From positions 1 through 48,553 of the forward strand of contig JACRLC010000034.1 of assembly GCA_016235425.1 (NCBI GenBank): a stretch of DNA of 48,553 nt. Reading direction: 5' to 3'. The notes under the pieces were generated by a model. That model was given only the letters and a program-made list of their open reading frames with translations. It was not told the origin of the DNA and ran no database searches. This stretch comes from Chloroflexota bacterium. Its GTDB lineage: Bacteria > Chloroflexota > Anaerolineae > Anaerolineales > Villigracilaceae. The position numbers and the translations under genes were made by a program. Below, piece after piece: positions 21,380 through 31,778 of this stretch (position 1 is its first letter; every line of letters begins with the position of its first letter).

Positions 21380-21393
21380 ATTTCCTGCCATCC

Positions 21394-21427
21394 AAAAACC
21401 CTCTTCCAAAAACGGGAGAGGGTTTTT
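21394..21427. terminator. Bidirectional terminator
   Basis: The stem aaaaaccctcttcc / gggagagggttttt, with one mismatch and a six-base loop, has A-rich and T-rich outer ends. It ends both the plus-strand secreted protein gene and the minus-strand PyrK-like gene. Confidence 0.75.
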
Positions 21428-22097
21428 ATATTAACTCGGCCAAATCAAAAACAGGCCCATCTTTACAGACCATCTTCCAGCCATGTTTGACAGTGACCGC
21501 GCAGACGCCGCAATCAGCCAATGCGCCGCACGGCATGGGGGCGCGGACTAAAACCTGCGCTTCCCACCGGACCCGAACCTGACTCTCCCGTCCAAGCCTT
21601 GATCTCAACTCAGGCAGTGTCTCGCGCGCAACGTCGAACGCGGCGTAATCAGCCCAATTCAAAACGTCACTCAGCGCGCGCAGAGGTTGGACTTCCACAT
21701 CCTCCGGCAGGTCATCAGAGACATCCTTGCAGACCAGGGTGACCGCGGCTCCCTGCTTCAACGCGGGCCGGATTAATCCGCGCAGACGCGCTGGCGAATC
21801 ATCGAGTGCGACCAAAGCCACGCGCCGCGCGGAAACTGGCAGGGAAAATCCATGCCCAAGCGGACCGCGCAAATGCAGGCGCGTGCCGGGAGTCCACGCA
21901 ACGGGCAAAGGGGACGCGAGGCGAAATCCATTGGGCGCTGATTCTGATAAGAAAACGGGAACAGCCAACGGGGCGTCTGAGGCGAATGCCTGGGCAAGGA
22001 GATATTGCCCGGGAGCGGGAATCAGTTTGGGCGGGCAAACGAGTCGACCGCCGGAGTCCAGATATGTTTCCACCAATTGTCCTTCACCGCTGCGCAT
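21426..22097 (-). CDS. PyrK-like iron-sulfur flavoprotein subunit (orphan)
   Basis: A 223-residue protein resembling the electron-transfer subunit of dihydroorotate dehydrogenase B. The C-terminus carries a [2Fe-2S] ligand set C190, C196, C199, C211, followed by KDGPVFDL, a close match to PyrK. The N-terminal FAD domain has PGQYLLAQA but lacks a clear R-x-Y-S flavin motif. The NAD-binding half is short, and the first cysteine spacing (x5) is one longer than usual. No pyrD lies beside it, so the partner is unknown. It may serve another oxidoreductase. It sits alone, bounded by a terminator and a divergent SPFH gene. Confidence 0.65.
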   Translation of the reverse strand: MRSGEGQLVETYLDSGGRLVCPPKLIPAPGQYLLAQAFASDAPLAVPVFLSESAPNGFRLASPLPVAWTPGTRLHLRGPLGHGFSLPVSARRVALVALDDSPARLRGLIRPALKQGAAVTLVCKDVSDDLPEDVEVQPLRALSDVLNWADYAAFDVARETLPELRSRLGRESQVRVRWEAQVLVRAPMPCGALADCGVCAVTVKHGWKMVCKDGPVFDLAELI

Positions 22098-23280: not shown

Positions 23281-24345
23281 ATGCCGATTCCACAAACAGG
23301 ACGCGAAATTAGATTGACGACTCTATCCGCCTGTGCGGGTTGAGCGTCGAAACTAAGCGCGGACGCGCTGGCGCAGGTTCTGCGTCCTGTCAAGGATATC
23401 TTCGATCCCGCCTCATACCCGGACCTTTTGGTTGGTCTCGACGGACCGGATGACGCGGCCGTTTGGCGTTTAAGCGAAGACCGCGGCATCGTGGTCACAA
23501 CAGACTTCTTCACGCCAGTGGTGGATGGCGCGTATGATTATGGTTCCATCGCGGCGGCAAACAGTCTCTCCGATGTGTATGCCATGGGCGGGACTCCGTT
23601 CATGGCGCTCAACATCGCCGCCCTGCCCGATCAATTGCCGCCGGAAATCTCAAGCGAAATCCTGCGCGGCGGAGCGGAGAAGGCGCGCGAGGCAGGAGTC
23701 GTCATTGCGGGCGGGCATACGGTGAAAGACAAGGAACCAAAATATGGACTTGTGGTCATCGGTTTCATTGACCCTCGTACGATGCTCACCAAAGGCGGAT
23801 TGCGGGAAGGTGACGTACTGGTGCTGACCAAGCCGCTCGGCATGGGTGTCACCACCACGGCGTTGAAACAGGAAAAAGTCGAAGAGGCCGATATTCAGGA
23901 AGCAATTGGCTGGATGAAGCGCTTGAACAAAACCGCAGGCCAACTCGCGATGGAGTTCAACTTGCGCGCGGGGACAGATATCACCGGCTTTAGCTTGCTC
24001 GGTCACGGGATGGAAATGGCAGAAGCTTCTGGTTTGTTGCTTAATATTGACTACGCGCAAATCCCTTTCATCGGCGGAGCACGCAAATACGCCGAGAAAG
24101 GACTCTTCCCTGGCGGCGCGTTCGACAACAGAATGCACTTCGGTTCGCAAGTGAATTTCGACAAGAAGATTGACGAACCCGCGGAGATGTTGCTCTTCGA
24201 CCCACAGACCAGCGGCGGTCTCCTGCTTGGTGTGCCGCGCGAAAAGCTGGATGCGTTCAAGAGGCGCGCCAGTGAATTGGGTCAACCCGTTTGGGTGGTG
24301 GGCAGTGTCCATAACGGCAGCGCCGCAATTTCCGTCAGAGTGTAA
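23281..24345 (+). CDS. selD: Selenophosphate synthetase with in-frame UGA (Sec21)
   Basis: A 354-residue SelD read through a TGA at 23341-23343. The frame before the TGA (MPIPQTGREIRLTTLSACAG) has aaggag four bases before its ATG. The frame after it gives ASKLSADAL, then GLDGPDDAAVW, TTDFFTPVVD, AMGGTPFMAL, VIAGGHTVKD, DITGFSLLGHG and FDPQTSGGLL, all SelD motifs. The stop codon falls exactly where SelD proteins have their catalytic Cys or Sec (Cys17 in E. coli), with the conserved Lys three residues later. Thus TGA most probably encodes selenocysteine. Automated calls will start downstream and lose the active site. The enzyme makes selenophosphate from selenide and ATP. Sec machinery genes are not in the window. 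Confidence 0.93.
23356..23369 (+). promoter_or_regulatory. Candidate bacterial SECIS hairpin in selD
   Basis: A perfect 5-bp stem AGCGC/GCGCT with loop GGAC begins 13 bases after the UGA codon. Bacterial SECIS elements are short hairpins in this distance range with guanines in the loop. An alternative stem GCGTC/GACGC (23344-23348 / 23362-23366) competes. Confidence 0.45.
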
Positions 24346-27715: not shown

Positions 27716-27745
27716 GTGACAGTCACTTCAAAAAAGTGGCTGTCA
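27716..27745 (+). terminator. GTGACAGTCACTT palindrome, copy 2
   Basis: gtgacagtcactt and aagtggctgtcac pair with one G-T step around a short loop, then cttttaatt follows. It sits between the LysM gene and the NicO fusion gene and shares its arms with 23199-23263. It could weakly terminate the upstream gene. Confidence 0.45.
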
Positions 27746-27759
27746 CTTTTAATTAAGTC

Positions 27760-30258
27760 ATGACACGATTCAAGCGCCTGATTTTTATTTTCCTGACTGG
27801 CCTTCTGCTCTACGCGGGGACTCCGGCAAAAGCGCATCCCTCGGACATGTATTTTCAGACAATACGGGCGGAAATCTCCTCGCAGAATATCTTCATCGAA
27901 TGGACAATCAAGCCCGGTCCCCTGCTGGCAAACTGGATGTGGAGCGGGGTTGACCAGAACCAAAACGACCAGATCGAACCCGATGAATTGAACACCTGGG
28001 GGCAGGGATACGCGGGGATGCTCGGCGCGACGTTGAACGGAATGCCGCTCGATCTTCAGATCGAAGATATTTATTTCCCATCCGCCCGCACCGACCTGCA
28101 ATCCGGCGATGACCCGATTCGCATTTCGCTGAACGCGGGTTGGTCTCAGCCGTTGGATAAAAAAAACGAACTCACCATTTTCAACCAGTTTGAAGAGCAA
28201 AATTCGATCAACTGGTTTTACGTCACCGCGTTGGATGGGATTAGGTTCGAGAAGCCCGTTCAAAGCGGCGGGAAATTGGGTGTGATCTTCCTCCTAGACA
28301 GCGGGGCACAGGAAAATTTGCTCACGAGTTGGGATAGCGGAAAACCATCCCTGCCGCCGGGACAAAGCAAGGACCCGGTCTCACAGTCGGCGGAACAGGT
28401 CATTCCCGAATTGCAGAAAGAGACGCCGCAGGAAATTCTCACACGGCTGGTTAAGGAGAGGGAACTTTCAGTTCAATTCTATTTGCTGGCGCTGATCATC
28501 TCCGGGGCATTGGGCGCGTTACATGCCCTTACACCAGGACATGGCAAGACTGTCGTCGCGGCATATCTGGTCGGCTCGCGTGGAACGACGAAGCACGCGA
28601 TTGCGCTGGGCAGCATCGTCACTTTGACGCATACCGGATCGGTTTTTCTGCTCGGCGTTGTGACACTCGTTGCGTCAAAATACTTCCTGCCTTCCAACCT
28701 GATCCCGCTGTTGGAAATCCTCTCAGGAGTTCTGATCGTCGGACTCGGCATCAGTCTGCTTGTTGGGCGCTGGCGGGATTTACGCAAAAACGCGGCAGAG
28801 CAGGATCATCATCACGATCACAATCATGCTCACGATCACGAGCATGAGCACGATCATCACGATCATGAACATTCGCACAGCCACGAAATTCCAGATCAAA
28901 TCACATGGAGGTCATTGGTTACGCTGGGCGTCAGCGGCGGACTCGTCCCCTGCCCGGATGCGGTGGCGATCCTGCTGGTGGCTGTCGCGATCCATCGCAT
29001 CGCGCTGGGGCTGGCGCTCATTCTCGCATTCAGTTTTGGGCTTGCACTCGTGCTGATTTTGATCGGACTCGTGATGGTGAACAGCCGCCGCCTGTTCGAC
29101 CGCATGGACGCTTTCAGCAGGTTCGCGCCGGTCATGCCAATTGTCAGCGCGGCGGCGGTCATCATTCTGGGCATGGCGCTCACTTACGGCGCGGCGACAA
29201 AGGTTCAGGGGGCGAATCTGCTTTCCATAGCGGAGGCAGGTTCAGGGTCCGTGAGTGAAGCGGGCGCGGGATTTGAAATAGCCGATTCGCGAGTCCTCTT
29301 TCTTGGTTTGGATGAAAACGGTAAAAAGCAAGTCTTGCTTAAAAATATGTCGGATGATGAAGTCCGCATTTTGACTCACGAAGCAAACGACGTAACCGGC
29401 TTTGAGTTATCGCCTGACGGGACACGCTTCACGTATCTGTCGAATCGCACGTTGCAGGACAGCGACATCTGGCTTTACGACCTCACGACGAACAAGAGCC
29501 GCAAGCTGGTGGATTGCACGGGTCATCTTTGCTGGCAGGCAAGTTGGTCGCCGAACGGTGAGCAGATCATTTTTGAAAAGGTGAACATGCGCGCCGCCGA
29601 AGGTAAGTTGAATCTGCCCACGCTCGAATGGGTAAATGTTGAGACGGGCGAGGGCACGTCTGTGTTTCAGGATGATACGTTGCCAGGATATTATCCCGCC
29701 TGGTCGCCAAACGGGGAGTGGCTGAGTTATCGCGCGCCGGGCGGAAACATCCGCATGCAGAATTTGTCCACTAGCGAAGAAATCATGGTTACAAGTGCGG
29801 TTTCGGGGCCGGTGTATTGGTCGCCGGATTCGAGCGGTTTTCTTTTTGCAAATGGAACCGTGGTTCAGGATAAGTTCATCACGCGCCTGTTTTTCTATGA
29901 TTTGGAAAAGCGCGAATTTCATCAGGTGAACGGTGAGGGCAATTTTGAAGACAGCATCGCGGCCTGGTCGCCGGATGAGACAAAGATCGCGTTCATCCGC
30001 CGCGACCTGACCGCGTCATTCGGCGAACAAATTTGGATGATGAACGCGGACGGCTCCAACGCGATCCAGTTGACCCAATCCCCCGCCTCCATTCACGACG
30101 GGTTGAACTGGTCGCCAAACAGACAGTTTTTACTTGCCCACGAATACCTGCTGGACAAACCGCTTTCCGAACCGCGCATTATTTTGATTGATGTCGAAAG
30201 CGCGGAAGTGAAAGTTTTGACAGAGGGAAGCAACGCGGCCTGGTTGCCATACAAATGA
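27760..30258 (+). CDS. NicO-type metal transporter fused to a beta-propeller
   Basis: An 832-residue multidomain protein. It has a signal peptide (about 1-25), then an extracytoplasmic region starting AHPSDMYF that contains an EF-hand-like loop DQNQNDQIEPDE (65-76). A NicO/RcnA-like transporter core with about six helices (about 238-480) follows. It has HALTPGHGKT (255-264), a His/Asp-rich loop (350-375, about fourteen His) and GGLVPCPDAVAILL. The C-terminal 320 residues are TolB/PD40-like propeller repeats (FELSPDGTRFTYLS, ASWSPNGEQIIFE, PAWSPNGEWLSYR, VYWSPDSSGFLF, AAWSPDETKIAFIR, LNWSPNRQFLLA). It probably moves Ni2+ or Co2+; the propeller may sense or deliver. No frame break is seen across the joints. 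Confidence 0.85.
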   Translation: MTRFKRLIFIFLTGLLLYAGTPAKAHPSDMYFQTIRAEISSQNIFIEWTIKPGPLLANWMWSGVDQNQNDQIEPDELNTWGQGYAGMLGATLNGMPLDLQIEDIYFPSARTDLQSGDDPIRISLNAGWSQPLDKKNELTIFNQFEEQNSINWFYVTALDGIRFEKPVQSGGKLGVIFLLDSGAQENLLTSWDSGKPSLPPGQSKDPVSQSAEQVIPELQKETPQEILTRLVKERELSVQFYLLALIISGALGALHALTPGHGKTVVAAYLVGSRGTTKHAIALGSIVTLTHTGSVFLLGVVTLVASKYFLPSNLIPLLEILSGVLIVGLGISLLVGRWRDLRKNAAEQDHHHDHNHAHDHEHEHDHHDHEHSHSHEIPDQITWRSLVTLGVSGGLVPCPDAVAILLVAVAIHRIALGLALILAFSFGLALVLILIGLVMVNSRRLFDRMDAFSRFAPVMPIVSAAAVIILGMALTYGAATKVQGANLLSIAEAGSGSVSEAGAGFEIADSRVLFLGLDENGKKQVLLKNMSDDEVRILTHEANDVTGFELSPDGTRFTYLSNRTLQDSDIWLYDLTTNKSRKLVDCTGHLCWQASWSPNGEQIIFEKVNMRAAEGKLNLPTLEWVNVETGEGTSVFQDDTLPGYYPAWSPNGEWLSYRAPGGNIRMQNLSTSEEIMVTSAVSGPVYWSPDSSGFLFANGTVVQDKFITRLFFYDLEKREFHQVNGEGNFEDSIAAWSPDETKIAFIRRDLTASFGEQIWMMNADGSNAIQLTQSPASIHDGLNWSPNRQFLLAHEYLLDKPLSEPRIILIDVESAEVKVLTEGSNAAWLPYK

Positions 30259-30674: not shown

Positions 30675-31778
30675 ATGTCCCCTTTCGCGCTAAATCTCGA
30701 AAAACCAAAGGTTGAAACATCAATTGTTTCCCTCGAACCCGCCATCAACTGTTTCGGGAGCATGATTCTGCTCGCCAAAAATGAAGGCGATCCGGGCATC
30801 CACGAGTGGGTGGAAAAAACCCGCGCGCAGATGAACGCCGAGGAGTTTTTCAACCACAGATTGGTGACCATCGGTTTTTACTACGCCATTGTCCCGCGCG
30901 AAAAATCGAATTCGTTCGAAGCGTACCTGGAAGGCCTCGACCAGATGCAGCCATCCGCGTTCCGCGACAACTTGCTGAATTCGTATGCCACCATCTGTAT
31001 CCCGGAGGAGGCACAAAAGGATAAAGACTCGCCCGTAAACTGGGACGAGGTACTCTCCTCCGCTGAAAACTACGTTGAATTCCTGAGGCGCCGCTTCGGC
31101 GATGAACTGACGGAAGTTGAACTGGAAACTCGCGCCTACCAATACGTGATTGACCCCGCCGCGCTCAAGCAGTTGATCACCAGTCACCTGCGCTGGTTTT
31201 GGAAAAGCCACTTACAGCCCGAATGGACGCGCGTACGCCCCATGCTGGAAGAATCGGTGCGGGCTTTCAACCAGATTGACATGAGCGCCATGACCCGCCA
31301 GGAACTTGTCCGCTTCATTACGGGCAAGGAATTTGACGAGCCGAAATGGCTTGACATACTGGAAACAGCCAATGAACTGGTCTTCGTGCCAAACGCTCAC
31401 ATTGGGCCGTATATTCATAAGACCCAGCTTAACGACAAGTACTATATCTACTTTGGAGCGCACCTGCCGGAAGGCTCAAAGATACACATCCCCGAATTGG
31501 ACCGCGCAGAGATCGTGGCGCGCCTCTCCGCCCTCGCGGACGATACGCGCCTGCGGATTTTACAGATGATCTCCGAAAGAGGCGAGATGCGCGCGCAGGA
31601 CATCATTGACGAGACCGGATTGAGCCAGCCCAGTGTCTCACGCTATCTCGTACAACTGACGGCAACAGGCTATCTACAGGAAAGGAGAGTCAACGGAGCG
31701 AAGGCATACACACTGAACTATGACCGCATCGAAAAAACACTCAAGGCAGTTTCCGCCTTTTTATTGAACCGCTCGTGA
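30675..31778 (+). CDS. Long ArsR-type transcriptional regulator
   Basis: A 367-residue protein whose C-terminal 90 residues form an ArsR winged helix. Landmarks are RAEIVARLSALADDTRLRILQMI, then DIIDETGLSQPSVSRYLVQL as the recognition helix region, and a wing with RRVNGAKAYTLN. The first 270 residues are a helical domain without transmembrane segments that I cannot match to a named sensor, though it is seen with ArsR helices in Chloroflexota. Cysteines are scarce (two), so metal sensing through Cys is unlikely. The start has cggag seven bases upstream. It probably controls itself and the downstream MFS gene. Confidence 0.85.
   Translation: MSPFALNLEKPKVETSIVSLEPAINCFGSMILLAKNEGDPGIHEWVEKTRAQMNAEEFFNHRLVTIGFYYAIVPREKSNSFEAYLEGLDQMQPSAFRDNLLNSYATICIPEEAQKDKDSPVNWDEVLSSAENYVEFLRRRFGDELTEVELETRAYQYVIDPAALKQLITSHLRWFWKSHLQPEWTRVRPMLEESVRAFNQIDMSAMTRQELVRFITGKEFDEPKWLDILETANELVFVPNAHIGPYIHKTQLNDKYYIYFGAHLPEGSKIHIPELDRAEIVARLSALADDTRLRILQMISERGEMRAQDIIDETGLSQPSVSRYLVQLTATGYLQERRVNGAKAYTLNYDRIEKTLKAVSAFLLNRS

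Follow-up and report, generated by a model that had tools for sequence, protein, structure and literature searches.

An Anaerolineae gene that joins an Ang-1-like domain, a NicO membrane core and a TolB-like propeller, with relatives beside zinc-type genes

Background

Metal permeases preceded by an extracytoplasmic metal-binding domain are an already known kind. For the Ang-1 and Ang-2 domains, which stand ahead of HupE/UreJ-2 permeases, the authors proposed that the anglerase domain fishes for the metal and feeds the permease (PMC12537917). According to this source, the copper ligands of Ang-1 are the mature N-terminal histidine and Asn41, RbAng-1a binds copper with a Kd of 73.6 nM and nickel with 220 nM, and zinc slightly destabilises the solved Ang-1 domain (PMC12537917). 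The fusion protein described here is similar in its extracytoplasmic beta-sandwich, its predicted mature N-terminal histidine and the metal permease behind them. In contrast to Ang-1 and Ang-2, the permease is of the NicO instead of the HupE/UreJ-2 type, an EF-hand-like loop and a C-terminal propeller are added, and the host belongs to the Chloroflexota, not to the Pseudomonadota or Actinomycetota. The membrane core is homologous to RcnA-type NicO efflux proteins (PRK10019, PF03824), but the fusion scores below the cut-off of that subfamily (147.3 versus 195 bits) and is flanked by outer domains on either side of the core. In the ZevAB system, the permease ZevB is NicO-like and is paired with a zinc-binding protein of the periplasm; unlike the fusion, the system consists of two genes and is not known to include a propeller. 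ZevAB of Haemophilus influenzae has been named a zinc uptake system (PMC10563805, PMC8000910).

TolB and the propellers of S9 peptidases share the PD40 repeats and the propeller fold with the C-terminal part, whereas the propeller studied here has no peptidase domain and is attached to a transporter. Sister propellers of the fusion adjoin, in the loci described below, a pair of ArsP_1-like and DUF1980 proteins, and we take ScfA and ScfB to be such a pair. In the genome of the window the DUF1980 partner of a ScfA/ScfB-type pair is missing. ScfA and ScfB of group A Streptococcus are homologs of YcgR and YcgQ of B. subtilis and are presented in PMC5584981 without a propeller and with a function called unknown.

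Results and discussion

The fusion gene and its occurrence

The window, a stretch of 48,553 nucleotides from a Chloroflexota bacterium, carries on the plus strand a gene at 27760..30258 that starts with ATG at 27760, ends with its stop codon at 30258, has no internal stop and encodes 832 amino acids. A preliminary description had read one open frame with a HupE-like start, an EF-hand-like loop, a NicO core and a propeller, and this reading was borne out by the frame and its homologs. The order of N-terminal domain, NicO and propeller recurs in a single frame in other genomes: in 10 of 61 relatives, the window's own genome counted, in 13 of 396 genomes of the class (open frames of at least 790 amino acids), and in 32 of 79 loci from named contigs, drawn from the best 80 of 585 stretches in 527 relatives, so that further fusions may exist at lower ranks. 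The sets of named and unnamed contigs overlap; L035 and L132, for instance, seem to be one and the same contig. The 32 fusion contigs are assigned to Anaerolineae, Anaerolineales, Chloroflexi, Anaerolinea, Brevefilum and Candidatus Desulfolinea, all of which we take to be Chloroflexota. Among the remaining 47 loci, L160 and L189 are incomplete because their contigs stop there; the others hold a NicO protein without this propeller and come from Chloroflexota as well as from other phyla, e.g., Acidobacteria, Deltaproteobacteria and Planctomycetota.

A sequencing error near codon 500 that joins two genes had been feared. The linker, residues 483-504, has indeed a low confidence in the structure model, but the same join is present in 32 contigs whose proteins are 34-46 % identical to that of the window. 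Because the three-part frame recurs in all these named contigs, an artefact is excluded with a residual chance close to nil. A description of a NicO-propeller fusion was not recognised in the literature covered, which comprised titles and beginnings of abstracts and included few subscription journals. What is new is that an Ang-type domain is combined with both NicO and a propeller, and that this propeller is tied to a family present at metal loci.

N-terminal domain and EF-hand-like loop

By reading of the sequence, residues 1-25 (27760..27834, plus strand) form a predicted signal peptide with cleavage expected before His26. The cleavage region reads PAKA-HPSD, therefore cleavage would expose H26, which is kept in 32 of 33 aligned fusions; a histidine directly after the signal peptide, as in Ang-1, is predicted. 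The following extracytoplasmic domain (residues 26-200; 27835..28359, plus strand) was modelled alone with a pLDDT of 94, and the model resembles the beta-sandwich fold of the Ang-1 "anglerase" domain from a HupE/UreJ-2 protein, solved with copper bound (PDB 9gce). This was the best match among solved structures (Foldseek E 2.6e-5, probability 1.00, TM-score of the match to the query 0.49; VIA Z 9.1 over 141 residues, rmsd 3.9, 6 % identity). A PDB sequence search with the domain at E up to 10 did not return 9gce, which was found by fold comparison alone. Zinc-bound ZrgA and PA4063 followed among the weaker Foldseek matches. Domains of ligand-gated channels (Z 6.4-7.2) were discarded as relatives, their likeness being taken as a shared beta-sandwich.

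The EF-hand-like loop at residues 65-76 (27952..27987, plus strand) that the preliminary description had noted stood up to comparison: D65 and E76 are present in 33 of 33 aligned fusions, the loop has the canonical 12 residues, and the full structure model places it between helices 54-64 and 74-85, a helix-loop-helix. One such loop is visible in the domain. Pfam gave no EF-hand family for the window protein at E up to 1, and calcium-binding proteins were weak profile matches to the N-terminal domain (best E 0.0022). With L203 excluded for its short N-terminal part, the motif occurs in 32/32 fused and 20/45 unfused NicO proteins, in L173 away from its usual place, and in 13 of 947 other ORFs of the same loci. 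The loop begins at D65, the mature residue 40, next in numbering to Asn41, the second copper ligand of Ang-1; judged by numbering and fold, it would lie at the metal site.

The statement that a NicO protein usually consists of the membrane core alone fails for these relatives. Thirty-seven of 45 unfused rows carry His-Pro in the first 100 residues of their N-terminal part (one row, L160, is in fact a fusion truncated where its contig stops; L203 was too short and left out). HupE/UreJ-2 permeases bearing such an N-terminal domain have been published already (PMC12537917). The unusual part of the fusion relative to its NicO kin is the propeller.

Membrane core

The NicO core covers about residues 236-480 (28465..29199, plus strand). 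Residues 245-368 belong to PF03824 (43 bits, cut-off 27.7), and H255, H261, H291, C398 and D400 are each found in 33 of 33 fusions. We infer six membrane helices, with basic loops on the inner side and the two termini on the outer side; a signal peptide and the invariant propeller residues C586 and C591 agree with this topology. The best NCBIfam match of the fusion protein is an efflux subfamily, PRK10019 (NF007454, the RcnA subfamily), under its cut-off. HupE_UreJ_2 (PF13795) was not among the nine Pfam families listed at E up to 1. A His-rich loop at residues 350-375 had been claimed and is present in the window copy (residues 350-376; 28807..28887, plus strand), but its long form is not conserved among the 33 fusions: it was seen in few relatives, while in most the loop is short or His-poor and a short His motif is left, which is reflected in the columns of H365 (30/33) and H367 (31/33).

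Two label changes are needed to account for the 41 fused rows in a tree of 91 NicO cores, and the fusion may have arisen once. The fork uniting the fused rows with the unfused group that holds L161 has a support of 79, and the unfused row L085 falls beside fused rows. Three unfused NicO proteins of 738-800 amino acids (L172 9164-11566, L184 9788-12073, L179 9407-11623) each match NicO in two or three separate places; their membrane part may be duplicated or extended.

The propeller and its kin

Pfam, structure model and fold comparison agree on a PD40/TolB-like propeller at about residues 505-832 (29272..30255, plus strand). It belongs to PD40 (PF07676, 39.5 bits, cut-off 20.9) and stays far below the cut-off of TolB (TIGR02800, 75.7 versus 343.15 bits). 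Most of the domain was modelled with a pLDDT above 90. The TolB-like repeats of the preliminary description are present, yet our count of strands in the model amounts to seven blades and not about six, with the last strand closing the propeller. The top Foldseek match was TolB (E 6.7e-13), the top VIA match the S9 peptidase 8wt1 (Z 29.3, 305 residues, rmsd 3.2). Although the best resemblance is to S9 peptidases, an identity as peptidase was dismissed, since Pfam gave no peptidase domain. Cys586 and Cys591 (29515..29532, plus strand), both in 33 of 33 fusions, may form a disulfide.

The propeller tree of 86 rows, gathered with the window protein as query, places 47 fused rows beside a group of 34 stand-alone propellers (SH-aLRT 97). 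These 81 are split by a long branch (support 100) from the outside propellers, which number five; one gene entered the tree twice (L069, L082). The tree also includes a piece of a broken copy (L104 7451-9339, genome G428), a fusion in a zinc locus that runs over two overlapping frames and has intact relatives. Twenty-seven of the 34 stand-alone propellers are near a Fur, Znu, ArsP_1 or DUF1980 gene, counted as centres within 6 kb in the available stretch, and locus L161 unites an unfused NicO gene, a Fur gene, ArsP_1, DUF1980 and a separate propeller. The fused propeller stems from a propeller family whose other members accompany ArsP_1/DUF1980 and zinc-type genes, and it may have been joined to a transporter a single time. 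Kin propellers adjoin a redoxin-like gene in L043 (4828-10181), L044 (4903-10260), L101 (8981-10866) and L102 (9742-11750); in L043 and L044 the propeller at the redoxin side is a second one, near ArsP_1/DUF1980, and CopC-like proteins were recognised nearby by reading.

Gene neighbourhood

Six loci (L129, L135, L137, L143, L146, L147) have the order ArsP_1, DUF1980, propeller, fusion, Fur, ZnuA, ZnuC, ZnuB; for L035 and L036, Pfam and NCBIfam were used to check the family assignments of the neighbours. One or more genes of the set Fur, ZnuA/B, ArsP_1 and DUF1980 were present within 5 kb of 18/32 fusions versus 3/46 unfused NicO genes (Fisher p 2.6e-6, kinship ignored), L189 being excluded as its full NicO frame is missing. 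L160 entered this comparison as unfused, yet it is a fusion gene interrupted by the end of its contig; leaving it out makes the unfused count 3/45. Within the same distance of the 32 fusions, ZnuA/B was found 14 times, Fur 13 times and ArsP_1/DUF1980 10 times. Fourteen of the 32 fusions have no such neighbour within 5 kb, several of them with less than 5 kb of flank, and L140 was scored as none with ArsP_1, DUF1980 and propeller nearly at or beyond this limit. Because the queries were taken from L035, L036 and a small number of further loci of Chloroflexota, the search is biased towards finding these neighbours in that phylum. The neighbour link needs eight changes on the NicO tree, many linked fusions are close relatives, and part of the link reflects inheritance within one clade. 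The surroundings of the relatives speak more for zinc-type genes than for genes of nickel or cobalamin metabolism. In L165 (3633-8844) an unfused NicO gene is followed by a NikR-like gene, recognised by reading, and then by ZnuA, ZnuC and ZnuB-like genes.

Regulatory signals

Upstream of fur, a Fur-type box with two mismatches or fewer was present in 13 of 13 loci; the box had been defined on four loci, of which at least one (L035) is apparently the same contig as the scored L132. Judged from its neighbours, the Fur protein beside znu is probably Zur. The same search (at most two mismatches, 250 bases, one strand) gave no box before any of the 32 fusions, the best having five mismatches, and none before the 10 arsP1 genes, the best having four; a box upstream of the fusion, as expected of a Zur-controlled zinc gene, was not present. 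Apparent boxes at the znuA start (11 rows, two to three mismatches at -1) are the Met-Lys-Lys codons with which the gene begins and were left out of the count. In the genome of the window, boxes with up to three mismatches amounted to 55 sites per strand versus 10 for the control. Two boxes had one mismatch, one before fur-znuACB on contig C83, the other on C26 with no recognised zinc gene beside it, and none of the sites listed was on the window's contig. A terminator-like hairpin with a T run was recognised by sequence reading and palindrome listing between the LysM gene and the fusion (27716..27750, plus strand). A search for RNA families near the gene returned one sub-threshold match (21382-21448, E 0.42).

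The genome of the window

On its contig, C20, the fusion is surrounded by genes for SelD, CorC, a LysM protein and a long HTH protein, and its nearest relative, G033, has the same surroundings; Fur, Znu, ArsP_1 and DUF1980 genes are absent within 5 kb of this copy. C83 carries fur and znuACB. Its flanks resemble by reading those of G008, without the intervening ArsP_1, DUF1980, propeller and fusion genes. DUF1980 was not found in the genome, therefore the fusion protein can act without it. The sole ArsP_1 match, on C27, is weakly like the zinc-type ArsP_1. A second NicO gene, without propeller, is located on C53, and CbiM (PF01891, 212 bits), of a cobalt/nickel uptake family, adjoins a second Fur gene on C86. 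A check for nickel enzymes yielded five hydrogenase-family matches over the cut-off, on C5 and C104 and hence off the window's contig; urease was not found in the genome.

Proposed function

We propose a cell-surface transition-metal transporter with Ang-like capture and NicO transfer, and consider the chances of this reading as a whole to be about even. Cleavage of the signal peptide would free the N-terminal histidine H26, this residue and the nearby acidic EF-like loop would capture a metal ion, the Ang-like domain would hand it to the NicO channel, and the propeller, outside behind the last membrane helix, may act as a lid or as a docking platform for a partner. Zinc would be the likeliest metal and zinc balance the role, because many relatives are encoded together with fur-znuACB, ArsP_1, DUF1980 and a sister propeller; supply seems somewhat likelier than efflux. 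The preference of the solved Ang-1 for copper and then nickel (PMC12537917) and the missing Fur-type box before the fusion speak against zinc, and the sub-threshold likenesses to efflux families speak against supply.

These likenesses would suit an RcnA-like efflux pump for nickel, cobalt, zinc or copper that works with ArsP_1/DUF1980 against metal excess, with outer domains that block re-entry. Besides the PRK10019 score of the NicO part (147.3 bits, cut-off 195, nickel/cobalt efflux), the ArsP_1 protein of L036 matches the Cu/Zn efflux protein SO_0444 (104 bits, cut-off 300) and SaoE, and the missing box before the fusion fits as well. However, all these efflux-family scores remain under their cut-offs, ZnuA/B is downstream in 14 of 32 fusion loci, and Ang-type domains were proposed for uptake (PMC12537917), so that we regard an efflux pump as rather unlikely. 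Somewhat more doubtful is a capture-and-uptake protein for copper or nickel to which the zinc genes are mere neighbours. The affinities of RbAng-1a (copper 73.6 nM, nickel 220 nM; PMC12537917), the CopC-like proteins near the kin propellers of L043 and L044, the NikR-like neighbour of the unfused NicO gene in L165 and the five hydrogenase-family matches on C5 and C104 argue for it. Zinc-type neighbours in 18 of 32 fusions argue against it, as do the CbiM of the cobalt/nickel uptake family already present in the genome and the urease that was not found there. Lower still in probability, we place a new metal-handling complex of Anaerolineae, in which fused and stand-alone outer propellers would dock mutually or on a shared partner and relay zinc at the cell surface between ZnuA and the permeases, while calcium at the EF-like loop would gate the metal site.

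The fusion extends the recently described anglerase-permease idea to the NicO family and to the Chloroflexota, and adds an EF-like loop that is invariant and lies next to where the metal site is expected. The ArsP_1/DUF1980 pair, with which we identify the ScfA/ScfB proteins, gains a genomic setting and therefore a testable metal. In PMC5584981 the function of that pair is called unknown.

Further genes of the window

Upstream of the fusion, SelD (selenide, water dikinase; 23281-24345, plus strand) is probably a selenoprotein, because the reading passes an in-frame TGA (23341-23343) at the active-site motif; the listed ORFs start too late. Downstream of the fusion, 30675-31778 (plus strand) encodes a protein of 367 amino acids with an ArsR-type helix-turn-helix at residues 289-334. 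Its first 280 residues have no listed Pfam match, and the gene also adjoins the fusion in G033.
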